DNA from: Polytrichum commune
Lineage: Eukaryota; Streptophyta; Polytrichopsida; Polytrichales; Polytrichaceae
Assembly (NCBI GenBank): GCA_950295325.1
Contig: OX485808.1
Span: 13,518,501-13,582,500, forward strand
DNA length: 64,000 nt
Direction: 5' to 3'
Numbering within the stretch: the stretch's first letter is position 1; each line of letters begins with the position of its first letter. This document shows, piece by piece, positions 16,824 through 42,882 of the stretch. The translations under genes and the position numbers were made by a program. The notes under the pieces were generated by a model, which worked only from the letters and a program-made list of their open reading frames with translations, was not told where the DNA came from and searched no databases.

Positions 16824-19800
16824 TCATTCCCCCTCTTCATCTTCATCTTCAACTTCATTTCCATTTTCAAGATCGTTTTCCGCAGCTGCGATACGTGCCA
16901 AGTTGTCTTTGGCAAAATCTATATGTTTTTGCGGGATGGTCATTGTCTCTGATTTCGAACCTTTGCGTGGTTTCCAAGCACAAAGTATGGTATCTGTGTT
17001 TATCCAAACCGGTTCGTATGATGAGTCCATTGTCCATTTGAAACCTTTTTTGGTGTCCCACCCTAAATATGTCCGGAGCACATTTTGATCTTTGGTGCTT
17101 GGACGGCAATATTCCACCTCAATTTGGCGAAAATTTGGACTAGTTGGAACAAAGTTTGGTGATGACAATGCTTTCACCAACCAAATTGGCTTGGGATGCT
17201 CCTCATCCCCAGCACGTACGAGCAGCAAATAACCTTCGTGGCAATCAACCCCAACACGAAACGACGGCTCCGGTCGATTGCGAGCAGGGCCAACATAATG
17301 ATCGTCCGCAGCGAACTCTTCACGAACGTCCCCATTGTTGAACAACATGGCCTCAGATTCCACGACTGTCACTCGACTTTGTGGCCAAAACCCTTGTGTC
17401 AAACATGAATGTGTATCAACATCGGGTGCTATCAATGCCGTGCGAATGCGATCCCAATACGCAATCAATGGTTCGTGGGTATCCCTAACACGTCTTGTGA
17501 TGTCTTCCTCGCACAATTCTTTCCAATATTCAATGAATCCGGATATACCTTTGATGATTTCTGGCCCATTTCTCATGGGGCTGGGTGTACAAGGCTTCGG
17601 CTCACCATCAGGTAGCACACATTTGCCATCTTCGTTTTTGCGCCAAATGAGTATCCCTTCCTCCGGACCCCAATTCGGGGAAGTGCACAAAACTTTGAAT
17701 TGCATGGCGGGCAGACCATCGTCACGCATATAAAATCGGAATTGTTGAGCCTTGGTGTGGCCCACTAGTCGGTCAGACCCCTTAAGAATGAATGGTTTTA
17801 TAAACCGTTTGAAATCGGGCACTTCTTCAATCAAATGTGGAATGACTGGCACATTGTCCAAATCCATATATGATTTCATGAGAAGAGGAATTGTCGGAAA
17901 ATCCTCCTCGTGCAACTTCATACTCCAACGTCCAAATGAAGCGTCGATGTCATCGTGCGTGTGGCCAACCATCAAAAAAGACACAAACACTTCTTTGAAA
18001 ATGCCCTTGGCTACCAGCAATGACCAGAAACAAAACACGTATCGACATTTGTTATCTTTGGCACAATTGTCAAGTTGCACGCGTAGAGTTCGAGGCAAAG
18101 GTTTAGCAAGAACGGGTTGTTCAGGCGGTTCTTGAAGTGAAGATAGACAAACTTCCTTCCCCTCTAGCACAGCCTCATAAATCGGAGTTGTTCCACATCC
18201 AACAAAAAGAGCACGCGAGGATGATGTTGGCGGACTCTCAAGATCTCGTAGAAGTTTTGCAAAAGACCCTACGGTATGATTGGCGTCGCCTGGATAGAAA
18301 TCCAAGCCATAATGTGCATACTTGACGTCCACATGGCCATGTGCAATCATACCTGAATTAAGACATACAAATGAGAAGTACATTCCAATATCATATATAT
18401 GAAGGAAATATGATATTGCCGCAAGTAAGGAACAACCATGCACAGACGAGTTACGGATGCGCATCCGTAACTCTTAAAAATGAGTATGTGGGCACGCCAA
18501 AAAAATGAAAACCAACGAACCTGTGACAGATATTGGCAGCTTGAAATATCCATGTGTGGCCTTTATTTTCCGCGCATAACAAGGGCAAGCGGTCTTCACA
18601 TGGTCCATTTTGTCATGAATGATTGTCAACACCTCGTTCGGCCTCATTATCGATAAGGCGCGATTCTTGTAGTAGTCTTGACGGTGTGCCTCCTGGTTGT
18701 TGACATGCTCAATGTATCTCTGTTGATGTCTGGTGTGCGACTCGGTCCCTATTGGATGTGCGTCTCGAAGGCCTTTATATTTTTCACAAGTAGAACACCT
18801 AGCAAACTTATCCCCGGGTCTCTTCGTAATGTATTCAGCGAACTGTTGATTCTTGATCACACTCAATTTTGACAACGAAATCGGCCCACATCCAACATTT
18901 TCACCAACTTCATTAACATCCACGAGTATGTTCTTCCATTTTGTCCCTGTGGGTAAAACCATCTGAACAACCTTTTCCCCTGACGGCAAAGTGCGTGTCT
19001 TGTGTGGCATCGCATCCGCTAATGGCATAATGATGGTTGACAGAGTTGCAGCCGCTTGGAGTGTTGCCTCCCTGGGCTTCTTTGTACCTGAGTTGCCATG
19101 GAACCGAGAACGCCTTCCTTGCAGCGAGTAGTTCCGGAACCTATAAAAATCTGCCTTTGAAACGGCATGAATAATGTACCATGCCCGGCAACAAACTTCT
19201 ATATTTTCCAAGGTCACAACCTTACAACCTCCGGCATCCAAGTGCATGTTGCGATGTACTTCAAGTTTCTTGGCAGACCGCATACGAAAGTCGGCAAGCC
19301 ACATCTCTTGCCTCAAAGATTTGATTTTGTCACGGGGAAATAGTTGGCAGCACTTCTTCGCACAACAATCCTTTGTGGCTACGGACCTAATAGATGTGTC
19401 TCCCAATGTATGATCTCGACGACGCTGCGTGGGTTCACGAGGCACACGAACGGAATCATATTTACGACGACCTTGTCTGGGACGCATTGTGGCGAACAAA
19501 GACTGTTGCAGTTGCTCAAATCGGCGGGATTGATCCCACAAGCTCACACCATTGTGATGAACACTTCGCAAAGGCCATCGACGGAGAGAGAACCTCCAAC
19601 CAGGAGGCACTTCCGATGGAAGTAAGGAGTTCAATATGCACACCCCAACATCGTCCTCCCCGAGGGGTTTTGCATCAATACAATCCGTTGGATTCGAGTT
19701 CCTACAAACACCGTTGGCCACGGGAACGGCACATGCATTGAGTAGTACAACATCAAGATCAACCCACTGCTCCCGCGAATAACCCTCACATGGTGGTATG

Positions 19801-19925
19801 ATTTCATCATCTGCATCGGCCACACCATTTGTAGCTTCATGTTCCACGACATCTTCAAACTCGCTAGCATAGCTTGACGGTTCCGAGGAGAAATCGGACG
19901 CACTATCACCGACGTCGGAATCCAT
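16824..19925 (-). CDS. DUF7869-like large protein, two exons
   Basis: The gene runs on the minus strand: exon 1 is 19,925-18,521, the intron is 18,520-18,353 (GT-AG), and exon 2 is 18,352-16,824. The join completes a codon and gives 977 aa. The start is the ATG at 19,925. The first ~60 residues are acidic and Ser-rich; the middle is basic (RRSRFHGNSG) with a CSTCEKYKG pair of cysteines near residue 375. The second half has HDKMDHVKTACPCYARK, WSLLVAKGIFKEVFVSFLMV and GHTHDDIDASFGRW near residue 600. That last motif is typical of DUF7869-like proteins, a poorly characterised multi-copy eukaryotic family that may descend from a transposon. The C-terminus is acidic. Function unknown. The frame is intact. 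The single intron carries one of the CpG-rich palindromes and ten more lie in or just beyond the flanks, as in the large gene at 24.6-58.9 kb. I recognise the motif, not the full domain, so the family name is tentative. Confidence 0.75.
18450..18471. repeat. CpG palindrome inside an intron
   Basis: TTACGGATGCGCATCCGTAA plus a matching G/C at the ends is perfectly self-complementary over 22 bp. It lies in the 168-bp intron of the DUF7869-like gene. Compared with the common form, both arms carry the paired change C to T and G to A. Confidence 0.9.
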
Positions 19926-19978
19926 GGCCACTACAAGAGAGCCAAATGAAGAATGAGATAAAATATAAGCAGTGTATG

Positions 19979-20716
19979 TTTACGGACGCCCGTCCGCAAA
20001 TCATTATCTGATAAGAGATGTCAGGGTTAGGCGCAAACGTCTTGGCAAATTAGACAATGTATGTTTACGGACGCCCATCCGTAAATATCCCTATGTCAAA
20101 TGACAATTGTGTCCAAAACAAATAGGGTTGCAAGGAACCAAGAAGTCCCAGCCCCATTTACATTTACACTAAATTTTACCTCCTGGCCTTACCAGTAATG
20201 TATTTGAATGTGTACCAACGGTTTGTCTGTTTACGGACGCGCGTCCGTAAACATACCTTTACCTCATTACTAAACAGATGCAAGAGGTTTGTATGTTTAT
20301 GGACGCGCGTCCGTAAACCTACCTATACCTCATTACTAGAACAGATGCAAGAGGTTTGTATGTTTACGGACGCGCGTCCGAAAACCTACCTTTACCTCAT
20401 TACTAGAACAGATGCAAAAGGTTCAAGATTTACAGACGCACGTCCGTAAATATTCATCAGAACAAATATGCATACTATCAAAACAGATAATAATTCACAG
20501 CCCAAATTGTAGATGACATACCACCATGTGACACCAAAAGGATGCATGTTTACGGACGCGCGTCCGTAAACCTACTTGTAAATGCTCAATGAGCCAATGA
20601 AAATAGATTGAGATACTCAATGATGCAACGAGCCACTGAGAGATTCAATAAGATATGAGATATTCAATAAGCAAATAAGTCAAGAGATGTAATGTTTACG
20701 GACGCGCGTCCGTAAA
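19979..20716. repeat. Cluster of eight CpG palindromes upstream of DUF7869-like gene
   Basis: Copies of the 22-bp palindrome (core TTACGGACGCGCGTCCGTAA) begin at 19,979, 20,064, 20,230, 20,296, 20,363, 20,429, 20,549 and 20,695; some carry one or two changes. Four of them (20,230-20,450) sit in a tandem repeat of about 66 bp containing ACCTCATTACTA and CAGATGCAA. All lie 54-790 bp upstream of the start codon, so they are promoter or 5' UTR proximal. Confidence 0.9.
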
Positions 20717-25742: not shown

Positions 25743-26478
25743 TTTACGGACGCGCGTCCGTAAACTTTGACGCACCAGGTGGGTGAAGCATGCAACATAT
25801 ATCCAGAACTTACGGACGCGCATCCGTAAGTTCTGGATATATTTAAAAAACAATATTATTACTAATGGACAGTATATTTTCCTAGTTTACGGACGCGCGT
25901 CCGTAAACTATTGACATCCAAGTAAACCCCACTCCTAGTTTACGGACGCGCGTCCGTAAACTAGTGACATCCGAGGAAACCCCATTCCTAGTTTACGGAC
26001 GCGCGTCCGTAAACTAGTGACATCCGAGTAAACCCCATTCCTAGTTTACGGACGCGCGTCCGTAAACTAGTGACATCCGAGTAAACCCCATTCCTAGTTT
26101 ACGGACGCGCGTCCGTAAACTAGTGACATCCGAGTAAACCCCATTCCTAGTTTACGGACGCGCGTCCGTAAACTAGTGACATCCAAGTAAACACCATTCC
26201 TAGTTTCCGGACGCACGTCCGTAAATTAGTGCTAACCCCGTAAACCCAACTACTAGTTTACGGACGTGCGTTCGTAAACTAAAACTTTCTTATTAAATCT
26301 TATCTTTGTTCATAGTTGAGATTCTCATCCCCAACTACCCGTTGATAGTTTACGGACGCGCGTCCGTAAACTACATGTGAAATTTCGTATTGACATATGC
26401 AAAATCATTTCGGATAGTTCATTCTGACACTATAATTCAAAACAACATGTGGAAAGTTTACGGACGCGCGTCCGTAAA
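25743..26478. repeat. CpG palindrome array with exact 53-bp period
   Basis: Twelve copies of the palindrome begin at 25,743, about 25,809, 25,886, 25,939, 25,992, 26,045, 26,098, 26,151, 26,204, 26,257, 26,349 and 26,457. The eight from 25,886 to 26,257 are spaced exactly 53 bp apart, with spacer CTAGTGACATCCGAGTAAAC and CCCATTC nearly constant. The copy centred at 25,819/25,820 extends to a 46-bp palindrome (25,797-25,842) with one mismatched pair. The array ends 45 bp before the first coding exon of the large gene, so it is probably intronic. Confidence 0.92.
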
Positions 26479-27966: not shown

Positions 27967-28096
27967 GCATTCAGCAGTGCGATTGTGACGAAGTTCTCAA
28001 GTATTGACATGAAGCAAAGCGGCATGAAGACAGTGCACGATCTGAAGGGCGAACTGAAGCTCATCACTTCGTCGGGTAGGACCTGGGCTATCTGGA
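27967..28096 (+). CDS. Host gene exon B, first part (left of the LTR element)
   Basis: Starts after TTGCAG and reads AFSSAIVTKFSSIDM through TSSGRTWAIW, in phase with exon A. It is cut after CTGGA by the LTR retrotransposon. The last four bases TGGA (28,093-28,096) recur at 38,033-38,036 on the far side and are the probable target duplication. Reading resumes in frame there. Confidence 0.75.
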
Positions 28097-28527
28097 TGTC
28101 ACGTGAGGTGACATCGGGGGCTAAGTCACGTCAACTTAGGAGTAAATGGACTCCATTAGGAGTCCATGTGTGTTGGGATGAGTAACGGACTCCATTGGGA
28201 GTCCTAGTTAGTTGTTCATCCACTCCATGGATGAACTCCACATTGGATTGGGGTTGTATGGAGAGGAAGGCCTCTTGACTTGCCATTGTTGTCAAGTCAA
28301 GTCTTGTGAGTGTGTTTTGAGAGAGAGAGAGCTTGTTGTTGCTTTCTCATGGCTATGGTGTAGTAGATTATGAGTAAAGCCTTTGCATTCTTTCTCCACC
28401 ACTTGCACTCTTGGATTCTCCCTTCGTGGAGTGAGAGATAGCTTGACTCTTGTGTGTGAATTTTAGAGTTTCTTAAGCTTTGTAAGGAGACATTTTAGTT
28501 TCTTAAGCTTGGAGAGAGAAACCCTCA
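28097..28527 (+). repeat. 5' LTR
   Basis: Starts TGTCACGTGAGGTGACA, a 6-bp inverted repeat around GTGAG that includes a CACGTG G-box, and ends AGAGAGAAACCCTCA. Internal motifs repeat, for example ACTCCATTAGGAGT and TTTCTTAAGCTT (twice). A GA run and short inverted repeats are present, but no clear TATA box. Confidence 0.95.
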
Positions 28528-29821
28528 TACTTGACAACAATTGTTCAAATTTTTCATTTTTGGTTGTATTTCTGAGCCAGAATGGCCCAGTAATGAGAGC
28601 AAATGAGTGATACAAGTGTTTGAAAGCTTAGTTTGTCATTTCTTGCAACCTTCAAGAAGATTTTGAGAGAAATCTTCCCATTTTTCTTTTGTTGTCTCTT
28701 TGTGTTTTCTTCAAGTGTTGATGGTTGAATCTTGAGATTCCATTTGGTCTCAAGATTCTCAAGTCACATCATTCTTGCTTGCAATTTGTAAAAGCAAAAG
28801 TTTAATTCTTTTAAAAATCTACAAACAAATACAAACCAAACTTCAAATCCGAATTTTTTTTTATATAATATTTTTTTTGAGCTCCGGAGCTCCACGGACA
28901 CTCTTGGAGCTCCTGGAGCTCCAATTCTGCAGCCGGGGCCGGAAAAATCCCGGGCGGCGGCAGCCGGGCCCCGCGGCGACGTGGCAGCGGGCCGGGGGCG
29001 GGCGGGCGACAGCCTGGCCGGATGGCGGGCGGCGCCAGCCTGGCCCCCCTCCCCTTTTCAAGGTACCCTTGCCCCCCCTTTGAGTTACTTAATTAATTAG
29101 TTTAGTTAAGATTAGTTAACTTAATTAGTTAATTAGGTTGGTTCATTAAGTTAGTTAATTAAATTAATTAGCTTAATTAATTAGGTTCTTAGTTTAAGTT
29201 AATTAAGTTAATACATTTAGGCTAATTAAGTTACTTAGCTTAAGTTCATTAAGTTAATTAATTAAGTTAAATTTTTTTAAATTTTTTTTAAAAAAAATAA
29301 ACCGGATTTTTTTTTTTTTTTTTTTTTTTTACTTTCACTTTCAAATTTGGCATTTCATTGTCACAAACTTTGAGGCTCAAATTTGGGGGCATACTAGCTC
29401 CGATTGAAGTGAAATTTGAGCCTATTTTGTGTGAAATTTGCCAAGGAATCCAATGGTGTAATTGGATTTTTGATTGGAAGTCAAAATCATTGCTGAAATT
29501 GTTAATTTCAACGCTGATTTTTGTTTTTGGGAGCAAATTAACTCCGATTGGAGTGAAATTTGAGCCTAATTTGTGTGAAATCTTCCTAGGAGTCCATTGG
29601 TGCACTTAGTTTGTTGATTGGAGTTCATAATCACCTTGGAAATGAGCCTTTTCAACGCTGATTTTTCATTTTAATTACCAATCTCAAACCTTTGCACAAT
29701 TTTGGAATTCTGGGGGCATAAACACTTGGCATTTGGCAAGGGATTGCCATTTAGATAGCCCGCAACAGGTGCAGGTTGCCGTTACCTTGTAGATATTTGC
29801 AGGTACTCAAGTGATTATTTT
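28528..29821 (+). other. Retrotransposon 5' leader with sharp base-composition blocks
   Basis: After 300 bp of ordinary sequence there is a block of overlapping SacI-type palindromes (28,878-28,921, GGAGCTCC units). A very GC-rich block follows (28,930-29,060), then a TTAATTAAG-type AT-only stretch (29,085-29,290) and a poly-T run (29,309-29,330). Next come two direct copies of about 145 bp starting near 29,385 and 29,533 (CTCCGATTG, GTGAAATTTGAGCCTA). Gag starts at 29,822. Confidence 0.7.
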
Positions 29822-32800
29822 ATGGTGCAAACTAGGAGCCGATATTATCGATCTCCATCACCAGATTATTTGGAAAACGTGCATACCACAAATCTTGAGC
29901 CAGAGGTAGATACCAACGAGGCTTTTGAGCCTATTTCGGCGTTGGACACTACTAATAGGCTTCGGATTTGGAGTGTCGGCACGTTCGACGACATGGAGGA
30001 CGATCGCCACAATTCAGTGCGTGATCGGTTTTCAGGTCGAGCTGGGGGCATTTCCTTGCCCAATTGGAAACTCCGGTTTCGTACCTGGATTAAGGAGAAA
30101 CGCCAAAGGTCTTCCAATTTCAATGATTGGTATGCCTTTGAACTTCTGCCTCAACATTTGGAGTATGAGGCACTCCAAACTTACGAACGATGGACAGAGG
30201 GTCATCAGCGACAACTTCGGGAGGTGGAGCAGTATTGGGAGGCCCGGGTTGAACTTATTTCAGCCCTTAAAGATGGGGCGATTGCCACCTTAGCTCCACC
30301 TACCTTAAAGGAGGAGGATCCACTGGAGGAGTCTGAGGACCAAGAACTGGCATTTGGGCCAATGGTGGCTGGCAGTAGCACGGCTACCCTTTCACGGATG
30401 GCACGTGCTACACAGGCAGCATTGACGGCTGTTGGTCCACCACCTCCATTTAATCCCCTTACAGAATTTGTCGCACATTTGGAAGTGGAGTATGGTGGGT
30501 TTCGGCGAGACCAGATGCAGCGCATCCAGGATTTCCGCCGAGAGAAGGATGATACTCCACGGACCATGTATACGCGACTCGCGCGATTTGCTGTGGAGTC
30601 GGGAGGTGTTTTTGCTGAGAGTCAGCTTGTTAAAATATTTTTGTCTAAGATTGACAAGCGGCTACTTGAGTTGGCATCACCTCGGATTATCCTCGACTAC
30701 GAGGGCCGAGCTACGCTCGCACAAGCGTTTGCCGTGGTTGAGAAATGTGATCGGGCTCTTTGCCAACATGATGCCACGGATATGGTATCTTGGATGACAG
30801 AGAGTCCGAAACCAAGAAGAATTGTCACAGCTACTAGCAGTTTAGCTGAGACTCAACCCGTCAAGGAGCAAAAGATTTTGCATTGTTGGGGTTGTGGAGA
30901 AGCTGGTCATTCGAAGAATGATCCCAATTGTCCTAAGAAGAAGAAAACTCAGCCTTTGGGAAAATTCAAACAAAAGATGGAACCAGTAAGGGCAGGGGAC
31001 AATTCTAAGAAGAGACAATTGAAATGTAGCCATTGTGGTGGCACTAATCACGATGTGGATCATTGTTTCCTACTTCATCCTGAGATGCGGCCTGCCAGTT
31101 ATGTCACTGGAAAGTCTCTAAGGGAGCAGAGTCTTGAGGCTAAGGTGGCAGAGCTTGAGCAAAAGCTCAAATCTTCTGCATCTTTTGCTCAAATTTCTGA
31201 GCCGCATGTGGGTGGTGGCACCTCGGGTTCGGACATGTATATGTTTGGAGCAGCTGGAGAGGTGGTGGCGGCGGCTTCTACTCGCTCACAAACATTGGCA
31301 GATGCGGTGGCTTCCACGAGTGGTGGTAGCAACGAGGTGCTACATCCTCGCCATGCCGGACCAGCTGATCAAATTGGTCAAGCACGTTTACCTCTTTCAT
31401 TTGGATTGGTAGACACCACTGTTGTTGGGGCTAAAAACCCTGTACCTTTGAGAGATGGGGATTCCATCTCGAAGGATGTTACGCAGGCATTGGCATATAA
31501 AATTCTCCATATGCCAATTTTCTCGGGTTCGGAGTTTATGGCTTCGGATTTCAAGCCTGCTGCAGTTTTTCATTTAGCTGGGAGAATGTTAGAAGGTAAG
31601 GCGGATTTGCCATCCCTTCAAGTATCCCAAGCTGTGGTTGACGTACCTGTGGCTGAGGAGGTGGAGGACTTAGCCAATTTGCGAGCGAGTCTTGCGGATG
31701 CGGCGATCATTGCTTTTGGTAAGCAAACTGATATTCCTCCAGCATCAATTTCAGCAGTGGATACGTCATTTTCGAATTATGCGTCAGGAGCGGCATATCT
31801 TGCAGACATTTCTGCAAGGCCTGCTCGCGAACGGCATAATTTGCAACCTGGAGTTGTACGGCTGATGAACGACAAATCTTTGTTTCTCGTTTCACGCACG
31901 GATATGCCCACTATCCGTGCTACACCACTGAAAGTTATGATGGATTCCGGTGCTCAACCGGTTATGATTGGCAAAGGACTCGCTGACAGTCTTGGATTGA
32001 CGCCAGCAAGCTTGGATCCTTGTCCATTCACTATTGTGACTTCAGTAGGGGGCACTGAACGTGCAACATGTTACACCAAGGCACCTCTACGTTTGATTTT
32101 TCATGTGGGGGCAGGGCCTACTTACACTCATTTGTCAATGAAGTGTGTTGTTACTAATGCTACCAACTATGATATACTTGTTGGTCAGCAAGCTCTTTAC
32201 CCACTTGGCTTTGGTTTGGATAATTGGACGGAAGAGGCATGGATTAGACCAGGATGGTCCACTGGAGATGGCAGGAAGGTATTTATTCCCGTCACATTTG
32301 CAGCCACTGCTATGACTATGGTTGCGGAGGCAATGTTTGGTTGCAGCGGTTTAGTTGCAGATTTGCCTTGTACTCCAGTTTTATTGGAGGAAACAATGGA
32401 CTACACTTGTAATGCGGCAGAACAACAATTTTTACCATCTTTTCAAAGTCCTGCTCGACATTTCAAGGATCCAACTCCACCATGGCGAACTCCTAAGGAG
32501 TTATCCGACCATTGTCGACACATTGTAGCGGATTTGGAGCTTGGAGAGGCACCCCCAACTTCATCCTCATTTTCTTTTGCTCAACCCATTCGTTGGCAAC
32601 CATCACCTGAAGGTATTGTCCTTGTGGAGATCTTTGGAGGCATTGGCACAGGTTTGGCGGCAGTGTTGGAAGCTGGAATTACAGTTCGGCAATATATTCA
32701 TGTGGACAATGGGTATGCAGCCAACAGAGCCGTCCGACATCACATCCAACAATTGTTGTTGAGATACCCCGCACAATTGTCAGCCTCTGCCATTCATGGA

Positions 32801-33919
32801 TGTTGTGGTCAACTTCCTCAAGATGTCACTATGATTAGTGATGAGGATTTGAGAAGGTTGGGCCACGTGGATTTGATTATTGTAGGATGGCCTTGTCAAG
32901 GCCATTCGCGGGCAGGAACTGGCCAAGGATTGGATGATCCTAGGTCTAGTTTGTTTGCGGATTTGATGCGATTGACGCAATGGTGGTTTACCCACCAATC
33001 AACTCCGCCAGGGTACATTTTCGAAAATGTACCATTATTGGGTGATACCCGGCACAAAGTGGTGAAGGATAGTGAGTACATTAACCAAAATCTGGGTACT
33101 CCAACATTTCTGGATGCTGCATCTTTGGGATCCTTTGCTCATCGGCCTCGTTGGTTTTGGACCAACTTGGTATCACCTCGGGTGCTTTCAGTGGCGATTG
33201 CCCTCATTCCCCGCCTTATGGATCGCAAGGTGGATGACATTTTAGATGATCATCGTGTTTCCTTGGCAGTTACCAAGGATGACACCTTGCCATTTGCATT
33301 AATTAACAAGGTGGGAATTCCGAGAGGTGCACTACCTACTTTTGTGACATATTCACAGTCTTTTGCATTTCGATCTCGTGGACCTGGCATGGTTTGGGAT
33401 TCAAAATCCCAAACTTATGAGGAGCCTACGGCAGATGAGCGGAAACGCGCCATGGGTTTTCTTACAGGTACCACAGCTGCTCACGGGCTTCAGGAAGGTC
33501 AGAGACGTTTCCTATTGGGGCAAACTATGGATCTTAATAGCATTGTGTGGATAATTGGAATTTGTCTTGCTGCTCAACAACGTATGGATGACCAATTGCT
33601 TACTCTGAGGGCAGAGAACAATGGTCAGGGGGCAATGGAGCCGCAATCCAAGGATCACATTGAGGTCAATGATACCGAGGGATTATTTCCTTTGAAACTT
33701 CATGTTGCGGAAGAGCTTCGAGCCCAACGTGTTTTTTCAGCTTTGGCCCAAGAGTTTGGGAAGTTGGAGGCCCATAAAATGTTTCCACTTCTATTTCTTG
33801 GTGATACTTCATATGTGGGTAGCTATTTAGCTACACAAACTGATTGTAGTGGAGAGGATACGCATTTGGATTCAAGTGCAGATGATGGGGGCAAAGGTGT
33901 TGCCCTCTCCACGGACTAG
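29822..33919 (+). CDS. Gag-protease-DNA cytosine methyltransferase polyprotein
   Basis: 1,365 residues. Gag region about 40-320. Two zinc knuckles bind nucleic acid: CWGCGEAGHSKNDPNC (from 355, CX2CX4HX6C) and CSHCGGTNHDVDHC (402-415, CX2CX4HX4C). Retropepsin has its DSGA active site at 708-711 and NYDILVGQQAL downstream. From about 930 to 1240 is a complete C5 methyltransferase. Motif I is EIFGGIGTG, motif IV GWPCQGHS with catalytic Cys1025, motif VI FENV (Glu1068), motif VIII RPRWFW (1108-1113) and a C-terminal LGQTMDLNS motif X. The short spacing and PCQGHS look DNMT3/prokaryote-like rather than plant MET1/CMT. Inferred role: methylating the element's own or nearby DNA, which was shown experimentally for related retrotransposon enzymes. 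The frame ends in UAG followed by CAA UCA and stays open into the next block. The ATG at 29,822 is the first in-frame start after the leader. Confidence 0.95.
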   Translation: MVQTRSRYYRSPSPDYLENVHTTNLEPEVDTNEAFEPISALDTTNRLRIWSVGTFDDMEDDRHNSVRDRFSGRAGGISLPNWKLRFRTWIKEKRQRSSNFNDWYAFELLPQHLEYEALQTYERWTEGHQRQLREVEQYWEARVELISALKDGAIATLAPPTLKEEDPLEESEDQELAFGPMVAGSSTATLSRMARATQAALTAVGPPPPFNPLTEFVAHLEVEYGGFRRDQMQRIQDFRREKDDTPRTMYTRLARFAVESGGVFAESQLVKIFLSKIDKRLLELASPRIILDYEGRATLAQAFAVVEKCDRALCQHDATDMVSWMTESPKPRRIVTATSSLAETQPVKEQKILHCWGCGEAGHSKNDPNCPKKKKTQPLGKFKQKMEPVRAGDNSKKRQLKCSHCGGTNHDVDHCFLLHPEMRPASYVTGKSLREQSLEAKVAELEQKLKSSASFAQISEPHVGGGTSGSDMYMFGAAGEVVAAASTRSQTLADAVASTSGGSNEVLHPRHAGPADQIGQARLPLSFGLVDTTVVGAKNPVPLRDGDSISKDVTQALAYKILHMPIFSGSEFMASDFKPAAVFHLAGRMLEGKADLPSLQVSQAVVDVPVAEEVEDLANLRASLADAAIIAFGKQTDIPPASISAVDTSFSNYASGAAYLADISARPARERHNLQPGVVRLMNDKSLFLVSRTDMPTIRATPLKVMMDSGAQPVMIGKGLADSLGLTPASLDPCPFTIVTSVGGTERATCYTKAPLRLIFHVGAGPTYTHLSMKCVVTNATNYDILVGQQALYPLGFGLDNWTEEAWIRPGWSTGDGRKVFIPVTFAATAMTMVAEAMFGCSGLVADLPCTPVLLEETMDYTCNAAEQQFLPSFQSPARHFKDPTPPWRTPKELSDHCRHIVADLELGEAPPTSSSFSFAQPIRWQPSPEGIVLVEIFGGIGTGLAAVLEAGITVRQYIHVDNGYAANRAVRHHIQQLLLRYPAQLSASAIHGCCGQLPQDVTMISDEDLRRLGHVDLIIVGWPCQGHSRAGTGQGLDDPRSSLFADLMRLTQWWFTHQSTPPGYIFENVPLLGDTRHKVVKDSEYINQNLGTPTFLDAASLGSFAHRPRWFWTNLVSPRVLSVAIALIPRLMDRKVDDILDDHRVSLAVTKDDTLPFALINKVGIPRGALPTFVTYSQSFAFRSRGPGMVWDSKSQTYEEPTADERKRAMGFLTGTTAAHGLQEGQRRFLLGQTMDLNSIVWIIGICLAAQQRMDDQLLTLRAENNGQGAMEPQSKDHIEVNDTEGLFPLKLHVAEELRAQRVFSALAQEFGKLEAHKMFPLLFLGDTSYVGSYLATQTDCSGEDTHLDSSADDGGKGVALSTD

Positions 33920-33925
33920 CAATCA
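33917..33925 (+). promoter_or_regulatory. UAG stop in CARYYA readthrough context
   Basis: TAG is followed directly by CAA TCA, which fits the CARYYA hexamer that promotes stop-codon readthrough in plant viruses. The next block of pol is in the same frame without any gap. Expected effect: mostly Gag-Pro-methyltransferase with a minority full polyprotein. The alternative is a CAG to TAG mutation in a once continuous frame. Confidence 0.6.
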
Positions 33926-36900
33926 CAGGCTGTGCTGGCACCAATTGGCAATCCTTCTATGAAGAAGGAAACCACGGAGTTTGACGATTGGCCAATTGAA
34001 GTGGGGCCAAAGCTTACTGGTGCCGAAGCACGAAAGGTACGGGCATTTATTCGCTCTTACCGTAATTGTTTTGCCTTTAGTCTTCATGATCTTGAAGGAT
34101 ATAAAGGTAAACCTGTTCGTATTCAACTCGAGGACAACCACCCTATTTTCAGACGGCCGTACAGACTTAGTACCTCTGAAAGGTTGGGTGTTCAAACTCG
34201 ATGTCAAGAGTTATTGGCAGCGGAATTGATTGAACTCTCCAATGGAGAGTATGCTTGTGCCACGGTTATGCCGTCAAAGAAGGATATCTTTGGCAACTGG
34301 ACGGAAAAACGGATGTGTGGTGATTATCGTCCAGTCAACCGCAAGACCAAGTCGGATCGATATCCAATGCCGATGCCGGAGGAGTTGTTTGATGCACTGG
34401 GATTTTCTAGAATCTTCAGCACTCTGGATTTGAGGTCTGGTTATCATCAATTACCTTTGTTGTTGGGTGATCGGGTGAAGACCGCATTTTGGGGAATTGA
34501 TAAAGATGGCAAGGATCAACTTTATCATTGGAAATTTCTGCCATTTGGTCTCAAGAATGCACCAGCTGAATTCCAGCGGGTGATGGACCAATTATTGGCT
34601 GGTTTGCCGTTTGCTAGATGTTACATTGATGATGTTATCATCTTTAGTAATAGTCCACAGGATCATGTGAGACATTTGCAAGCGGTATTTGAACGACTTC
34701 AACGGTGGGGACTCCGTTTACATCATGGTAAATGTAAGTTTTTCCATGATCAATTGCCCTATTTGGGCCACATGATTGTTCCTGGCGGTCTTGGTGTGCA
34801 ACAGGCGAAGGTGGACGCTTTGCACAAAATTCCCGCACCTAGTGATGTACCACGGCTTCGTGCATTTCTAGGATTGGCAAATTATTATAGGAGGTTTGTC
34901 AAAAACTTTAGTTTGATTGCCAAACCTCTTACCATTCTCACGGGGAAAGACCAACCATGGATTTGGAGTCGGGAACAACAACAGGCATTTGATACATTGA
35001 AGCAGAGGCTCGGTTCTGCGCCAGTGCTTCGACGCCCGGATGTGTCTAGAGCTTTTCAATTGCACACGGATTGGAGTGCAGTGGGATTGGGAGCGGTATT
35101 GACACAGAAAGATGAAGAGGGGAAGGAATATGTGGTGGCTTATGCATCTAGAAGTAATAATAGTGCTGAATCTAATTATTCTTCTTATGAAGGCGAGGCC
35201 TTGGCGGCCGTTTGGGCCATTGCACATTTTCGACCTTATTTGTATAGGCAGAAGTTTACTTTGGTGACTGATCATCAGCCTTTAAAATGGCTTATGGAAT
35301 CAGATAAGCTCACCGGAAAACTTGCTAGGTGGGCATTGTTACTTCAGGAATATGATTTTGAAGTTGTTCACCGAGCAGGAATTGCCAACTTGGATGCAGA
35401 CGGATTGTCTCGCAATCCAAGTCCTTCAGATGAGGATTTGACTGGAGCCAGGTGGCATGGAGATTGTGATCGTGAGGCAGTGCCGGGTTGGCATGCTGCC
35501 ACATATCTCACAATGATGTCGGGATTGGCTGCTGAAATCCTTGTGGAAGAGCAAGATGAGGAGGTTGATAAATCTCTCGTTGTTAGTGATGTGTGGGAAG
35601 ACCAGGCGGTCTTGCACAAACTTCAACAAGGGATATTTCCTCTTGGACTATCTTCTATGGAGCGAGATAGAGTTAGTCACCGGATAACAAGGTTTCGTTG
35701 GGCAAACGGCTTGTTATTTCGTGTGTGGCCGAACGGAACGAGGCGCATCGTTCCAAGGCCAGATCAAAGAGCTTCTTTGGTACGGCAAGTGCACGAGGAG
35801 CTTGGACATTTTGGAGTGCGAAGGACACACTCTATGTTGCGCAACCAATATTGGTGGACTGGTATGTACCAACAGGTTGCCACTTATGTTTCTCGGTGTG
35901 AAGTATGTGACCGGGTTAGGTCAAGTTTTAATACTTTATCACTTCAACTTCAACCTTTACCTATTATGGGCTTGGGATATCGTTGGTCTTTGGATTTTGC
36001 CGGACCACTTACTATCACTCCACGTGGCTCCAAGTATGTGCTTGTGATGGTGGAGCATTTTAGTAAGTGGATTGAACTCGTGGCTCTTCCCCAAAATTCC
36101 TCAGAATTGGCGGCTATGGCATTTCTTGATCGAGTTTTGGCACGGTTTGGAGCACCTGCAGAGGTGTTGACGGATCAAGGGAGAGAATTTCTTGGATCTT
36201 TCGAAACTTTGTGTACCAAGGCTTTGATTGATCATCGGACAACTTCCAGAGATCACCCTGAGGCAGATGGCTTAGCTGAACGAGTTGTTCAGACGGTTAA
36301 GCGCGGTTTGCGGAAGTATGGATTGCTTCATGGCAACCATCGCGATTGGGACTTGATGTTACCATGGATAGCAATGGGTTACCGTTTCAGCAGGCAAGCA
36401 TCTTTAGCATCCTATAGTCCTTACCAACTCTTGTATGGACGGGAACCAATTTTACCTAGCTCGGTGCGAGAGAAATTGGCTCCCGTGGTCAACTTGGATG
36501 ATCCAGATGTTTGGGCTCAATGTCTTCATGACCGAGCATCGTTCTTCCAAAAGGCCATGCCTATGGCTATGGAGAACTTAAATATTGCTCAACATCGTGA
36601 TACATTACGGTATGCCCGGATCCGCAGTGGAGCTTATCGACCTCAGGTTCGTAGATTTTCCAAGGGGGATTATGTTTACTTGCAACGGGAGGCGCCTACG
36701 ACATTGGATGTCAAGGCTGGGCGCACGATTTTGCGGGTAAAAGATGTCTTGCCAAGTGGTATATTATTGCTTGAAGGCAAGGATGGACGGGAATGTCGTG
36801 AGCATTCAAAGAATTGTGCTCCATGTCACCTTCCCATCGACGGCTCTGTGCATCCCGAGTTGGCGGTTGTACCACAGGGTTTGCCTTGTTATGTTTGTGG

Positions 36901-37063
36901 AGAGAAGACAGGAGCTGCAACAATGTTATTGTGCGACCAATGTCAACGTGGATGGCACATGGCATGTTTGACACCTCCCCTTTTGACTCTTCCTTCTGGC
37001 AATTGGGTTTGTCCTCGTTGTCGGAAAGCCTCTCATTCCGTGGCCGTTAATGGTCATGATTGA
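33920..37063 (+). CDS. Pol: reverse transcriptase, RNase H, integrase, PHD finger
   Basis: Open from the codon after the UAG; the first convenient non-ATG start is at 33,932 and the first ATG at 33,959, so readthrough is the likely way in. Counting from 33,932: reverse transcriptase about 75-260 with TLDLRSGYHQ, FGLKNAPAEFQR and the catalytic YIDD at 231-234. RNase H about 360-480 has HTDWSAVGLGAVL, EGEALAAVWA, TDHQPLKW and ANLDADGLSR. The integrase zinc domain is HEELGHFGVRRTH ... CEVC. The DDE core has WSLDFAGPL, LTDQGREF and a glutamate in EADGLAERVV. A C4HC3 PHD finger (CYVCGEK ... CDQCQRGWHMAC ... CPRC) lies at about 986-1035 where chromoviruses carry a chromodomain. PHD fingers read histone tails, so it may direct insertion; that is inference. 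No frameshift is seen. Confidence 0.95.
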   Translation, partial: QSQAVLAPIGNPSMKKETTEFDDWPIEVGPKLTGAEARKVRAFIRSYRNCFAFSLHDLEGYKGKPVRIQLEDNHPIFRRPYRLSTSERLGVQTRCQELLAAELIELSNGEYACATVMPSKKDIFGNWTEKRMCGDYRPVNRKTKSDRYPMPMPEELFDALGFSRIFSTLDLRSGYHQLPLLLGDRVKTAFWGIDKDGKDQLYHWKFLPFGLKNAPAEFQRVMDQLLAGLPFARCYIDDVIIFSNSPQDHVRHLQAVFERLQRWGLRLHHGKCKFFHDQLPYLGHMIVPGGLGVQQAKVDALHKIPAPSDVPRLRAFLGLANYYRRFVKNFSLIAKPLTILTGKDQPWIWSREQQQAFDTLKQRLGSAPVLRRPDVSRAFQLHTDWSAVGLGAVLTQKDEEGKEYVVAYASRSNNSAESNYSSYEGEALAAVWAIAHFRPYLYRQKFTLVTDHQPLKWLMESDKLTGKLARWALLLQEYDFEVVHRAGIANLDADGLSRNPSPSDEDLTGARWHGDCDREAVPGWHAATYLTMMSGLAAEILVEEQDEEVDKSLVVSDVWEDQAVLHKLQQGIFPLGLSSMERDRVSHRITRFRWANGLLFRVWPNGTRRIVPRPDQRASLVRQVHEELGHFGVRRTHSMLRNQYWWTGMYQQVATYVSRCEVCDRVRSSFNTLSLQLQPLPIMGLGYRWSLDFAGPLTITPRGSKYVLVMVEHFSKWIELVALPQNSSELAAMAFLDRVLARFGAPAEVLTDQGREFLGSFETLCTKALIDHRTTSRDHPEADGLAERVVQTVKRGLRKYGLLHGNHRDWDLMLPWIAMGYRFSRQASLASYSPYQLLYGREPILPSSVREKLAPVVNLDDPDVWAQCLHDRASFFQKAMPMAMENLNIAQHRDTLRYARIRSGAYRPQVRRFSKGDYVYLQREAPTTLDVKAGRTILRVKDVLPSGILLLEGKDGRECREHSKNCAPCHLPIDGSVHPELAVVPQGLPCYVCGEKTGAATMLLCDQCQRGWHMACLTPPLLTLPSGNWVCPRCRKASHSVAVNGHD

Positions 37064-37388
37064 GGACTTTGTGGATGTTTACCACATGTTTTAGTGGTGA
37101 AGTTGTTATTTAGTTGGTTGGAAATTTTATGGGATTGAAAACCACATTGAAAGAGTTATCCAAGAATTCAACATTAATTGTTGAAGGCGATTAAGGATGG
37201 GGCTCACATTGCACCCAGCCTACAATTCTTGGATTACTTTGTCAATCACGAGTTTAATTCCTTCGATTACTACTACCTAATTAAATATGTATAGATGTAG
37301 CAACAACTTCATCATGTTCAACAACTCTATCGATGAGTGTGTTTGTTCCTAGCCGATTGGAGGGGCTCCTTATCTGCTAGTGGGGGCA

Positions 37389-38032
37389 CTTGAAGAGGTG
37401 GTTGTTAGCATTTTAGTTTGTTATTTTATTTTGCTATTGATGTTGACAACGACACTCGATCTGTTGTGTTTAACGATCTTAGTTTACACGACAGCTGTCA
37501 CGTGAGGTGACATCGGGGGCTAAGTCACGTCAACTTAGGAGTAAATGGACTCCATTAGGAGTCCATGTGTGTTGGGATGAGTAACGGACTCCATTGGGAG
37601 TCCTAGTTAGTTGTTCATCCACTCCATGGATGAACTCCACATTGGATTGGGGTTGTATGGAGAGGAAGGCCTCTTGACTTGCCATTGTTGTCAAGTCAAG
37701 TCTTGTGAGTGTGTTTTGAGAGAGAGAGAGCTTGTTGTTGCTTTCTCATGGCTATGGTGTAGTAGATTATGAGTAAAGCCTTTGCATTCTTTCTCCACCA
37801 CTTGCACTCTTGGATTCTCCCTTCGTGGAGTGAGAGATAGCTTGACTCTTGTGTGTGAATTTTAGAGTTTCTTAAGCTTTGTAAGGAGACATTTTAGTTT
37901 CTTAAGCTTGGAGAGAGAAACCCTCATCTTGAAGAGGTGGTTGTTAGCATTTTAGTTTGTTATTTTATTTTGCTATTGATGTTGACAACGACACTCGATC
38001 TGTTGTGTTTAACGATCTTAGTTTACACGACA
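37389..38032 (+). repeat. 105-bp direct repeat on both sides of the 3' LTR
   Basis: 37,389-37,493 (CTTGAAGAGGTGGTTGTTAG ... TTTACACGACA) recurs without visible change at 37,928-38,032. The order is segment, GC, LTR, T, segment, host. The sequence after the 5' LTR is TACTTGACAAC and the repeat starts CTTGAAGAG, so CTTGA is a 5-bp microhomology at the odd junction. A template switch that deleted nearly all internal sequence of a second, tandem copy would give this structure. Confidence 0.85.
37496..37926 (+). repeat. 3' LTR
   Basis: 431 bp, the same length as the 5' LTR and the same sequence as far as I can follow by eye. It is preceded by ...ACGACAGC, with no polypurine tract next to it, and followed by T and the 105-bp repeat. 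Confidence 0.95.
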
Positions 38033-38671
38033 TGGATGCGCGTCTTCCATGCACACAGCAACGGAGAACTCATCAACCTTGAGACGGAGAAGAAGTACAA
38101 AGAGGACTTGAAGATTAAGGTGCCTCCAATCCTCAGAGAGTTCTTCCATCCCCTCCAAGGGTTGCTCGATGCCGAGCTTTACAAGGCAGCAGAACACCTT
38201 CTTAAGGAGACTCCGAGAAGGACAGCGCCGTATCCAAAAATCTTCCTCAAACGACCAAGGTTTATGAAGCCTTCAACGTACCATTTTAAGGAATGGTGCG
38301 AATACAGGAAGAAGAAGACGTTGGCTATGAGGGAGATAGGCAAATTGGTACCCGCCTACAACCTTACAGATGCAGATGGTGACATTGTGTGGGACAACTG
38401 GAGGGGATTGAAAATAGCATACCACATCAATGGCGTCTCAATGAAGGCATTGATGAGAGCAGCATCTCCGTTCTTGGCCCAGCGCTCAAGGAAGAACGAG
38501 AAGAAAGGTTCTATCGACGAAAGGGAGACAACTTTGTATAAACACTTCCTCGATAGAAAGAAGAATGCCAAATTCGAGGGTGTCGCAAGGTTTTGCGCCG
38601 TGACATCACAATTGAAGTTCGGCAAGTGGGACACCCATGCTTCGCGGGCCACTGTGAGAGATGACCCCCGG
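38033..38671 (+). CDS. Host gene exon B, middle part (between the two elements)
   Basis: Continues the host frame from TGG ATG CGC and encodes about 213 residues: RVFHAHSNGELINLE, VPPILREFFHPLQGLLDAEL, FLKRPRFMKPSTYHFKEWCE, RSRKNEKKGSIDERETTLYK and WDTHASRATVRDDPR. It is rich in Lys and Glu. I do not recognise a family. The last eight bases, ACCCCCGG (38,664-38,671), are the target duplication of the hAT element and recur at 54,623-54,630. Confidence 0.75.
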
Positions 38672-39684: not shown

Positions 39685-42600
39685 ATGCCACGCCGAAATG
39701 ATGCATGGGATCATTGGTACGAGGATAAGGGGATGGTTCCCGGTAAATCACAAAGGCAGGTTAAATGTAGGTTTTGCCCGTTCGTCATATCTTACTGAGG
39801 AAATAGAATGTTGGCCCACCTTGGTTATAGACCTCCTGTAGGGGGTGCTTGTGATGTTTCCACATGTAGGATGGTACCCCCGCATATTAGGGTCTTGTTT
39901 GAACATTGCGGAGGCATTGTGCCCTTACATGTAGGCATTGTAAATGAGGACTCTCCGGTGCCAGATATTGTACCTCTGGAGCCTATTATAGCGGACTCCG
40001 TAATTAGTGAAACAGAGCCTTTGCTTATGTCCCAATCCACTCAACATTTTGATGTTGTGATATATGGCACACCTCCTCGTGAACTACGTCAACTCAACAT
40101 AACGGAGGGGTTCAATGTGTCAACAAAACAACTCCTTGATAGAGCATGGGCAACGGCTTTTTATGAAGCTAACATTCCTTTCAACATTGTGAGACATCCT
40201 GCATTTGTTCATGCTGTGCGTGAAACTGCCCGTCATCGAATGCCAGCCTACACACCACCATCGTACAATGCCATCCGTACGAAGTTGTTAACTGATAAAA
40301 AGGTTGACCTAGATAGGCAAGTGAAGGAGAAGATGGGGAATTCCGTTGAAAAATACGGTGTTACAATATGTTGTGATGGATGGGACAACGTGCAAAACCG
40401 ACCTCTCCTAAACGTTCTCCAATGCGGCACAAAGGGAGATGTTTTCTTGCGTACCATTGATACCACGGGAAATCACAAGGATCATGTATACGTTGCTGCT
40501 CAAATTCAACCATTTGTGGAAAAGGTTGGTCGACATAATGTGGTCCAGATTTGCACCGACAATGCCCCAGTTATGGCCTCCGCTGCTCGCGACTTGATTC
40601 AAGCAAATCCCGATCTATATTTTCAAGGATGTGCTGCGCATTGCCTAGATCTCCTCTTAGAAGATTGGGGGAAGGAGGAATGGGTGAAAAAGTTGGTAAA
40701 AAAGGCGCGCCATATTTGTGTTTTTATCAAAAACCATCATGCTTCTCAAGCTATATTCCGGAGGTTGTCACCAAATCTCTCACTCCGCCTACCTGTAGAG
40801 ACCCGTTTTGCAACGAACTTCATCATGATAGATCGTCTTCTTCAAGTACGCAATGCTTTGGAAAGAATGGTGGTTGATGAGGATTGGCCTACTCTAATGC
40901 GTGATATGAGGAGGAGATCTCGCACCTCTTACATGAAGGGCTCTGCTGTGCGAAGCTTTATACGTTCTGATGGATTCTGGAACACGTGCGAAAATTTCTT
41001 GTATATGGTGATCCCGGTTGTTAAAGCTCTTCGTGTATTTGATGGCAAGGCGCCTGCAATGGGAATGGCTTGGAGGGTCATGCATGATTTACAAACCCAT
41101 ATTCGTGGATTTAGTAAACCTCCATTTCGCTTAAGCCCTGAGCTTGCTGCAAATGCTATGCTAACGTTTCAAAATAGATGGAGGTTGATGTTGAATGATC
41201 TACATTGGGCTGGAGCGATGTTAAATCCGCTTCTACGTGGTTGGGCCCCACTCCATGAGGATGAGAATTCGAGGACAATCCTAAATCGAGTTCTTCGCAG
41301 GCTTGCTCAAGATGAGGACACTTATGTCCAAATCCTCCACCAGTACCAAGATTTCCTTGAAAATCGAGGGCCTTTTGCTGATTCTACTGACCCGAGCGTG
41401 CATGCCGCACCTCTCCATGAATGGTGGGATGCAATGGGAGGTGGAGCTAAAGCCCTCCAAACAATAGCAAGACGTATCCTTGCACAAGTATGTTCCGCAT
41501 CCGCATGTGAACGCAATTGGAGCATGTACTCATATGTTCACAACAAGAGTCGCAATCGCTTGAAGCATAGTCGTGCCGAGGACCTCGTCTACATATATAC
41601 CAATAGTAGGCTCATTCGACATCGGAGGGGCCCAAGACCTGCGCAATGGTACGAATTGAATGAGGTCCATTCTGACGATGACCTTGACGAAGAAGATGAC
41701 AACGAAGATGACGTGGATCCAAATGATAGTGCCGGAAATGATGCTGACAACAATGTTGATGACATCGACTTTGATTTGGATGACCTCGATTCCGAGAATC
41801 ATGATTCAGAAGATGAGGATGGCAATGGTAGTGATGGAAACCTTGGGGTGTTTGATTTTGATGAACCGGATGTCCCCCAACATAACGACGGAATGCATGA
41901 CGATCATGAGGGGTCTATTGGAGGACCGCCTTTTGAAACTCTCCACATTGGACAAGGGTTTCGCCCTGCCCATAATGTTGCTATGGGGGCAAGTGAGAAT
42001 GTAGGAATTGAAGTAGATTCCTTGCAACCTCGGAGCGATTCTCTTTCTTTTGGTGAAGGTGACAATGTACTACCCGCAAATGAGCCAACGCACGTTCAAC
42101 AGGATCCATTTCCAGCCCGAGTACATTCTGAATCCATGGACGCCTCCCTCATATCCAACCATCGTATAGAAGATCAAACGCCCAATGTTCCTGAAATACC
42201 TACAACTCGATTCCGTGCTCTTCAAAGAACTGCATCAACCTCTACGGTGCAAGTGCATGCACAAGGTCAACGTCGTCCTCTCACTCGAAGTATTGCCAAT
42301 ACTTCTAGATTGGGTGTTTCACGTGCAACTGCGGTGGGTGCTACTTTGGTTGCTATACACAATGTTTCAAGAAATGTTACTACAGAGGCGCCACGTCGTC
42401 ATTCTGTTCGTCGACATGTTGTTGAGAACATACCAATTGCAATTCCATCCGCATCAGTTTCACTTCCACACAGTCAATCCAATGGAACATGTGGCCTTGG
42501 AGTTGGAGGCGGAAGTACAACGGGGGATGCTTTTATAGATGGAAGTAGAGATGAAGTGCACTCAAGTCGTGGTACGGATGGAGGGCGTCAGAGAACTACG

Positions 42601-42882
42601 AGAGGTGTCAAACGTACTAGGAAGAGGTATCAGGGAAGATCGCTTCCGTTTACTGCTGAAGACTACAATGAAGATGAGGGTAGACCACATCTAGATGAAA
42701 ATGGCATACAGGATGCAGAGGGCTCCCGGCCGACCAAGAAGATAATTTTCTCACAACGTGACCGAGAGTTGCATCTTCGGAGCGCGACTCCCCAAACGGA
42801 TGATGATTGCAGCACAGACGAGTCTGAAGAGGACCCAAGATGTGTTGAAGCAAATGATCCCACAGTACGGATTCGAACGTAA
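39685..42882 (+). CDS. hAT transposase (BED finger, DUF659, hAT dimerisation)
   Basis: Cuts and pastes the element; acts in the nucleus. From the ATG at 39,685 a BED-type zinc finger begins (DAWDHWYEDKG, VKCRFCPFVISY). Codon 38 is TGA (39,796-39,798), after which the finger continues in frame as GNRMLAHLGYRPPVGGACDVSTC. The DUF659/RNase-H-like core has CCDGWDN (Asp, codon 231), QICTDNAPVMASAAR (Asp, codon 292) and CAAHCLDLLLED. The C-terminal hAT dimerisation region has EWWDAMGGG and SASACERNWSMYSYVHNKSRNRL with the catalytic Glu at codon 609. After codon about 650 comes a long acidic, low-complexity tail of some 400 residues, unusual for the family. If translation starts after the TGA, at 39,808, most of the zinc finger is lost. 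Either the copy is recently inactivated (CGA to TGA would do it) or the stop is read through. Confidence 0.88.

Follow-up and report, generated by a model that had tools for sequence, protein, structure and literature searches.

The 64,000-nucleotide (nt) stretch of the Polytrichum commune genome analysed here (the window; C6:13518501-13582500 of the searched 407.8-Mb assembly of 64 contigs) carries a Ty3/gypsy retrotransposon at 28097-38032 with split terminal repeats and a first open reading frame (ORF) that encodes a cytosine methyltransferase. Repeat order, target duplications and scars at one defined joint suggest that the element probably arose by self-primed reverse transcription, joining of the complementary DNA (cDNA) ends into a circle, and opening of that circle by the integrase at a palindrome within the long terminal repeat (LTR). 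The wider proposition, that the normal substrate of this DDE-integrase lineage would be a circle with two LTRs or one, cut at the intra-LTR palindrome, and that the methyltransferase would mark this circle before integration, stands in our judgement in even balance.

The repeats follow the order A1-internal-B1-GC-A2-B2. Repeat A1 (432 nt; 28097-28528, + strand) starts TGTCACGTG, a start shared by other copies of the element, and is identical to A2 (432 nt; 37496-37927, +). Likewise, the 105-nt repeats B1 (37389-37493, +) and B2 (37928-38032, +), the latter ending ACACGACA, are identical to each other. Target site duplications of TGGA border the element on both sides (28093-28096 and 38033-38036). 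The insertion interrupts an unrelated reading frame, which is open over 33 joined codons when the flanks are connected through a single TGGA. A preliminary description of this DNA spoke of matching LTRs, which is right in that the repeats are identical in pairs and flanked by TGGA; simple LTRs, however, had to be rejected in favor of the split arrangement A1 ... B1-A2-B2. The B1/A2 joint holds the palindrome GACA-GC-TGTC (GACAGCTGTC; 37490-37499), the putative cleavage site of the integrase, and the A2/B2 joint is interpreted as the joint of the circle.

The flanks of the internal region indicate what the LTR should be. A polypurine-tract-like sequence (GTGGGGGCA; 37380-37388, +) adjoins B1, and such a tract (GTGGGGGCA, GGGGGGGCA or near) is found there in both subfamilies of the element wherever the start of B1 was read, with the exception of copy L057. 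At the other side, a putative primer-binding site, ACTTGACAACAAT (28529-28541, +), adjoins A1. Its 13 nt are complementary to a candidate self-primer inside A, ATTGTTGTCAAGT (28285-28297, +; nucleotides 189-201 of A), in the window and in seven other copies, and the match extends to 16 nt in copy c9; in c8 and c10, 15 different nt after A1 are complementary to nucleotides 124-138 of A. Anchored self-complementarity of 13-16 nt is therefore present in 11 of 11 copies, with both sides changed between subfamilies and the pairing kept. A sliding null along the leader gave at most 10 nt in 1180 positions of the window and at most 9 nt in 1480 positions of c8. No primer site of transfer RNA type, starting TGG, was seen by eye at the end of A, the self-complement being found instead. 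At sequence level, the arrangement matches that of self-primed elements. Since the purine tract adjoins B and the primer site adjoins A, the LTR should be B-GC-A (539 nt) and the linear cDNA should read B-A-internal-B-A. No integrated copy of this form was seen: B-GC-A preceded 0 of 98 listed true A-internal joints, 100 of the 121 B-GC-A sites being listed, and a few such copies could escape among the 21 unlisted sites. Two candidates for a canonical 5' B-A (C3:7794023 and C5:38308727) were rejected, both being 3' foldback ends in which B-A is followed by an inverted A. Whereas a standard LTR element ends where its purine tract and primer site dictate, integrated copies of this element end at the B/A joint.

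The split arrangement is common in the genome. Searches that allowed two mismatches, and whose counts are thus lower bounds, found at least 121 B-GC-A joints and at least 152 A-internal joints of the window's subfamily, together with at least 134 sites at which the purine tract meets B; each control gave 0. Pairings used 100 listed sites per joint type. Among the 100 listed of the 134 purine tract-B sites, 77 were followed by a listed B-GC-A and 23 were not; for 14 of the latter, an A-internal joint is listed at a distance of 8 to 15 kb upstream. Because only 100 of the 121 B-GC-A sites were listed, 23 is an upper figure for the A-internal-B form among these sites. We also resolved 31 structures (the window, ten copies and twenty 3' ends), chosen by their methyltransferase ORF and not by their repeats: 25 read A-internal-B-A-B, five read A-internal-B and one (L053) is a foldback. 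Copies L100, L101 and L104, fetched for their unusual look, stand outside this count. Eight copies of the same subfamily are 97.1 to 99.6% identical to the window in ORF1 DNA. The second subfamily (c8), whose ORF2 is 77% identical at DNA level, has the same repeat order; only parts of its repeats align with those of the window (74% over 191 columns for A, 72% over 40 for B). Both subfamilies have the joint TTTACACGACA-GC-TGTCACG, though the starts of B and the ends of A differ.

Exact 4-bp target duplications flank 27 of the 31 copies in which both ends were located (the window, c1-c10, L052, L054-L062, L065, L066, L068-L070 and L104), the chance of such a match being about 1 in 256 per copy. 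Excluded from this count were L051 and L101, in which a single end was located, L100, for its 5' end, and L102, L103 and L105, whose sequence stretch contained no 3' repeat. Copies start TGTC and end GACA, and in the set delimited by BLAST borders these ends followed from the borders. All six A-internal-B copies with both ends located (c1, c2, c10, L057, L068 and L104) have an exact duplication. The dinucleotide GC is present at 24 of 25 B1/A2 joints, L063 having GT, and none of the copies with exact duplications showed it between the terminal GACA and the duplicated target.

Opening a 2-LTR circle at the B|A joint of one of its LTRs would give exactly the A-internal-B-A-B layout. The two joints of this layout differ in their scars. 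Insertions or deletions occur at the A2/B2 joint in 3 of 25 copies and at the B1/A2 joint in 0 of 25. One extra base is found at the A2/B2 joint of c9, and deletions in L058 and L069 have removed about 17-21 and 83-87 nt of A2 where it shares a CTTG microhomology with B. Since A1 is complete and the 4-bp duplication exact in both L058 and L069, the loss most likely took place after the cDNA ends existed and before integration.

We propose the following course of events. The RNA would be translated as Gag-protease-methyltransferase, with occasional readthrough at UAG-CAR-YYA adding the reverse transcriptase (RT), the integrase and a PHD finger. Reverse transcription would be self-primed, 13-16 nt inside A pairing with the site directly after A, and the plus strand would start at the purine tract before B, giving a linear B-GC-A-internal-B-GC-A. 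Joining of its ends would yield the 2-LTR circle, with one-LTR circles also forming. The integrase would then cut GACA^GC-TGTC inside one LTR, which would produce both 3'-processed CA ends, with GC overhangs, in a single step. Insertion with a 4-bp stagger would convert a 2-LTR circle into A-internal-B-GC-A-B; A-internal-B would result from a one-LTR circle, or from a linear molecule cut within each of its LTRs. Finally, in the step with the least support, the methyltransferase, whose expression at Gag level would probably bring it into the particle, would methylate the new cDNA or circle before integration.

A number of observations weigh against this proposal. The circle route is deduced from genomic copies alone, and retroviral 2-LTR circles have usually been held to be dead ends, as recounted in PMC5314604. 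Clear end-joining deletions occur in just two copies and an added base in one, and A-internal-B copies could arise by recombination between B1 and B2 after insertion. The candidate primer lies inside A (A189-201, or A124-138 in the second subfamily) and need not be the 5' end of the RNA. Duplications are inexact in four copies: L063 and L064 have one mismatch, L067 has none that can be recognized, with GC following its GACA, and L053 has GGCA versus GACA. For part of the copies the ends were sought by the motif itself, and the likeness of the ends is there partly by construction. Moreover, B of the second subfamily itself starts TGTC, and the end motif alone therefore fails to single out A.

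Two further explanations of the repeats were considered. It is conceivable, although we think it unlikely, that the whole A-internal-B-A-B unit is copied from RNA in a DIRS-like scheme in which the split repeats template the restoration of the ends and no end-joined circle is formed. Split-repeat DIRS elements do commonly show this order (PMC8969392), and repeats of DIRS-like structure have been noted in Klebsormidium (PMC5890265). However, a Pfam scan of both ORFs of the element found the rve integrase of DDE type and no tyrosine recombinase, insertions are flanked by 4-bp target duplications, purine tract and primer site adjoin B and A, respectively, which is how an ordinary LTR beginning with B is bordered, and the microhomology indels fall exactly at A2|B2. 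That the ordinary LTR is A-B (TG...CA), and that a founder with a rearranged 5' LTR and an extra B has been inherited since, is very improbable: A2-B2 alone does resemble a standard TG...CA LTR flanked by a target duplication, but the arrangement is common to two subfamilies with unlike A ends and B starts, Klebsormidium elements are also described with DIRS-like repeats (PMC5890265), and A-B LTRs leave the A|internal and purine tract|B boundaries unexplained.

If the circle route is correct, the element would be a natural case of a DDE-integrase element whose 2-LTR circles are not dead ends, which would reopen an old question of retrovirology. The route would have a testable genomic signature, target duplications together with end-joining scars at a defined joint, and would explain DIRS-like repeats in Gypsy elements that have no tyrosine recombinase. 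In the literature covered, with subscription journals mostly outside, we found nothing that links split repeats of Gypsy elements to target duplications, an intra-LTR palindrome or integration of circles.

Some copies depart from these patterns in other ways. Copies L053 (C3:7.79 Mb) and L100 (C5:38.31 Mb) end in B-A followed by an inverted A, which extends from the primer site to the first base of A, and L053 also starts with an inverted B and has the same half-sites, inverted. Both resemble products of snap-back or autointegration; snap-back priming followed by action of the integrase on the same half-site fits these copies but is not proof. Tandem partial duplications are present in the 3' part of A in L053, L069, L100 and c4, and affect both copies of A where both were read (c4 and L069).

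ORF1 (29822-33919, +) is open and encodes 1365 amino acids comprising Gag with a zinc-knuckle motif, an aspartic protease and the methyltransferase. The zinc knuckle was seen by eye (Pfam E 5.3) and complemented by a profile match to nucleocapsids, and the protease-like domain (residues 698-791; 31913-32194, +) gave weak Pfam matches below the cut-off (E 8.5e-4 and 2.9e-3). The methyltransferase domain (residues 926-1262; 32597-33607, +) matched PF00145 above the Pfam cut-off (E 3.3e-11). Motifs I, IV (PCQ), VI (ENV) and VIII are present in the window copy and in 9 of 9 further copies checked; motif X, by the pattern used, is present in 6 of these 9, with c6, c8 and c10 departing from it. The preliminary description of a complete cytosine methyltransferase, with its motifs in order and in frame behind Gag and protease in a retrotransposon, is borne out by the open frame, the PF00145 match and the intact catalytic motifs, with the protease being the weakly matched part. 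In a search of the PDB, a profile of 21 family sequences matched DNMT3A first (5e-17), followed by HaeIII (1.4e-7), 4onj (a 'DNA methyltransferase' that we take to be tobacco DRM; 1.5e-6) and DRM2 (0.0027). An AlphaFold2 model of residues 836-1287 had a mean pLDDT of 77, with 166 of 452 residues at 90 or more, and the best 50 of its 183 PDB matches in Foldseek (E <= 0.001) were all DNMT3 structures. Sequence and predicted fold thus both point to an enzyme of DNMT3 type.

ORF2 (33920-37063, +) shares the frame of ORF1, from which it is parted by one UAG, and encodes RT, RNase H, the integrase (rve core, residues 683-776; 35978-36259, +; Pfam E 1.9e-13) and a C-terminal PHD finger (residues 986-1030; 36887-37021, +; Pfam E 2.3e-10), in Ty3/gypsy order. 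Chromoviruses carry a chromodomain at the C terminus of the integrase; the Pfam scan found no chromodomain in the ORFs of this element, in which the PHD finger occupies that end instead and which does not group with chromoviruses on this character. The stop context is UAG-CAA-UCA in the window (33917-33925, +) and in seven copies of its own subfamily, and UAG-CAA-UUA in two copies of the second subfamily, so that the type I readthrough consensus UAG-CAR-YYA (PMC3542737) fits 10 of 10 copies read. This is a readthrough context of tobamovirus type, and the methyltransferase is probably made at Gag level: because the enzyme lies in ORF1, before the UAG, it would be made together with Gag, and Pol and the PHD finger would be added only on readthrough. 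The earlier suggestion of one polyprotein with a chromatin writer and a PHD reader holds insofar as both domains are present; they would form a single polyprotein only if the UAG is read through.

The enzyme is widespread in this group of elements. A protein search with the methyltransferase found 20 relatives, including those of Marchantia polymorpha and Klebsormidium nitens, and a search with the integrase-PHD end found 168, the best 120 of which include proteins of Volvox, Haematococcus, Tetrabaena and Marchantia. The PHD profile was matched by 120 of these 120, and the PHD finger is, by this measure, general in the clade, the search words of the query themselves having been drawn from the PHD end. 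A profile of the methyltransferase finds the domain in Tetrabaena P0044, Volvox P0045 and Haematococcus P0140. Among the same 120 relatives, the enzyme is present in 14 of 14 fused proteins in which the integrase starts at residue 1050 or later, which are those able to show the region upstream of RT, in 7 of 11 with a start at 700-1050, and in 22 of 95 with an earlier start (two-ORF layouts or fragments); a count by RT position gave only two usable proteins, and integrase position was used instead. In the 35 sequences that contain methyltransferase as well as integrase, the distances of the two domains are correlated (Mantel r 0.65, 0 of 999 permutations). A tree of 24 methyltransferase rows separates streptophyte and chlorophyte sides loosely, with 7 of 21 inner branches open, and because the DNMT3A row is very long we make no claim of rooting.

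These patterns do not fit a one-off capture, since relatives on many contigs and in Marchantia, Klebsormidium and chlorophytes carry the enzyme, and it is missing from none of the 14 sufficiently long fused relatives. The methyltransferase looks like an old part of the lineage, wider than the published charophyte case; the sequences suggest an older origin or a transfer between green lineages, and the 24-row tree leaves the choice undecided. The precedent cited at the outset, that of de Mendoza et al., is apt: their charophyte case is Klebsormidium, and they place the acquisition in the K. nitens lineage (PMC5890265). With reference to that work, a paper from 2025 (PMC12344493) places DNMT3 members of streptophytes and dinoflagellates in 'LTR Copia and DIRS' elements. 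A DNMT3-bearing Gypsy element with DIRS-like repeats has accordingly been known since 2018, and the homologues found here extend this kind of element to Marchantia and chlorophytes.

Among 353 candidates for PF00145 in the genome, 123 were scored, giving 123 matches. A spacing of 8.6-10.1 kb is shared by 51 of the 59 paired copies, and by this spacing no class of similar copies without the enzyme was found among the 59. No listed PF00145 match lies inside 35 of them, which, given the same spacings, we tentatively read as a result of limited scoring (123 of 353); one pair spaced 7290 bp also lacks a listed match. A further protein search recovered nothing named as a host DNMT3 gene; most of its weak matches are unnamed and one is labelled phage. 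A locus at C2:4703606 may be a host DNMT gene. A search of a viral collection gave zero loci, with three pattern matches unconfirmed. One relative, P0142, is filed as a methyltransferase under the bacterium Candidatus Obscuribacterales and is 72% identical over 84% of the retrotransposon-enzyme query; eukaryotic DNA contaminating a metagenome bin is its probable source. Possible relatives are REM1 and TOC1 of Chlamydomonas.

As to the role of the enzyme, methylation of the new cDNA or circle is our tentative first choice, favored by the long retention of the enzyme and by its apparent production together with Gag; expression at Gag level would make such methylation concrete and testable. It is also possible, and only slightly less likely, that the enzyme is carried as passive cargo or has host chromatin, and not the cDNA of the element, as its target, both of which are compatible with the circle route. 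In favor of this alternative, the Klebsormidium enzyme was inactive in yeast, a result described as inconclusive as human DNMT3B failed too, and the Klebsormidium methylome resembles that of land plants (PMC5890265). Passive cargo is opposed by the intact motifs, by a ratio of nonsynonymous to synonymous rates (dN/dS) of 0.13 between subfamilies, with dS saturated (gag, 0.10), by the presence of the enzyme in every fused relative long enough, and by distances that track those of the integrase. On the other side, dN between subfamilies is 0.287 for the methyltransferase versus 0.065 for the far better conserved integrase, and within the young subfamily the comparison with c6 gives a dN/dS of 1.09 (18 changes), with no purifying signal, both of which count against a role in the proposed route. 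The latter is as expected for insertions that drift after arrival and is not support. In these estimates c9 is partial and c2 was left out. Note that the evidence of constraint weighs against passive cargo only; none of it tells a cDNA target from a host-chromatin target. The statement in the preliminary description that such enzymes can methylate CG agrees with the Symbiodinium DIRS enzymes assayed in yeast and finds no confirmation in the inconclusive Klebsormidium result (PMC5890265).

Other features of the window lie outside the element. An apparently intact hAT transposase is encoded beside it by an ORF of 1024 amino acids (39808-42882, +) with DUF659 and a hAT dimerisation domain. A phosphate transporter (684-2363, -) matched 'Inorganic phosphate transporter 1-11', presumably a plant PHT1 name, at E 5.9e-183 versus 2.5e-69 for the next PDB phosphate transporter, which makes a streptophyte host likely. 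Two adjoining long ORFs (16824-19979, -), one with DUF7869, are perhaps another mobile element. A tandem array at 25826-26334 has a period of 53 bp and seven registers that resemble the reference at 72-98%. Long C/G-rich arrays at 38.9-39.5, 46.3-47.3 and 53.3-54.4 kb, the first built of CCGTCCGCTCCC-like units, contain overlapping low-complexity ORFs on both strands.

Several known systems share features with the element. Ngaro and PAT are split-repeat DIRS elements with a tyrosine recombinase. The order A1-internal-B1-A2-B2 is shared with such elements, which are described as making no target duplication (PMC8969392), whereas exact 4-bp duplications flank most copies here and no tyrosine recombinase was identified by Pfam in the two ORFs. 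SymbioDIRS-Dnmt3 of Symbiodinium is likewise a retrotransposon (DIRS) with a DNMT3-like enzyme, but it has a tyrosine recombinase in place of a DDE integrase and is reported as an independent capture (PMC5890265). In the self-primed Ty3/gypsy element Tf1 of fission yeast, the primer site is complementary to the element's own RNA, as it is here at sequence level; Tf1 primes with the first 11 nt of its RNA (PMC7175516), whereas the complement lies here inside A. The integrases of prototype foamy virus and of HIV-1 cleave palindromes at LTR-LTR joints (PMC1180852, PMC1905944), a reaction on a circular form that gives processed ends and resembles the one proposed here; in those viruses the palindrome is the LTR-LTR joint, whereas the palindrome of this element is internal to the LTR, and the true joint would persist in the integrated copy. 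The title of PMC4372172 argues that unintegrated HIV-1 DNA can start integration. The closest system is KnitGypsy-Dnmt3 of K. nitens, a Gypsy element with a DNMT3-class enzyme and repeats described as 'the same as that of a DIRS retrotransposon' (PMC5890265). The passages on it in that paper do not mention target duplications, a primer site, a palindrome or circle scars, and PHD has 0 occurrences in the main text. The K. nitens protein P0020 (KFL_009030040), 42% identical in the methyltransferase, probably belongs to KnitGypsy-Dnmt3. The enzyme of KnitGypsy-Dnmt3 is placed in the Pol ORF (PMC5890265), and in some relatives (P0018) it is fused with Pol; here, in contrast, it lies in the Gag-protease ORF before a readthrough-type stop and would be joined to Pol by possible readthrough only. 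With its DNMT3 domain and catalytic motifs, its RT, RNase H and integrase, and its DIRS-like repeat order, the Polytrichum element is nonetheless of KnitGypsy-Dnmt3 type.

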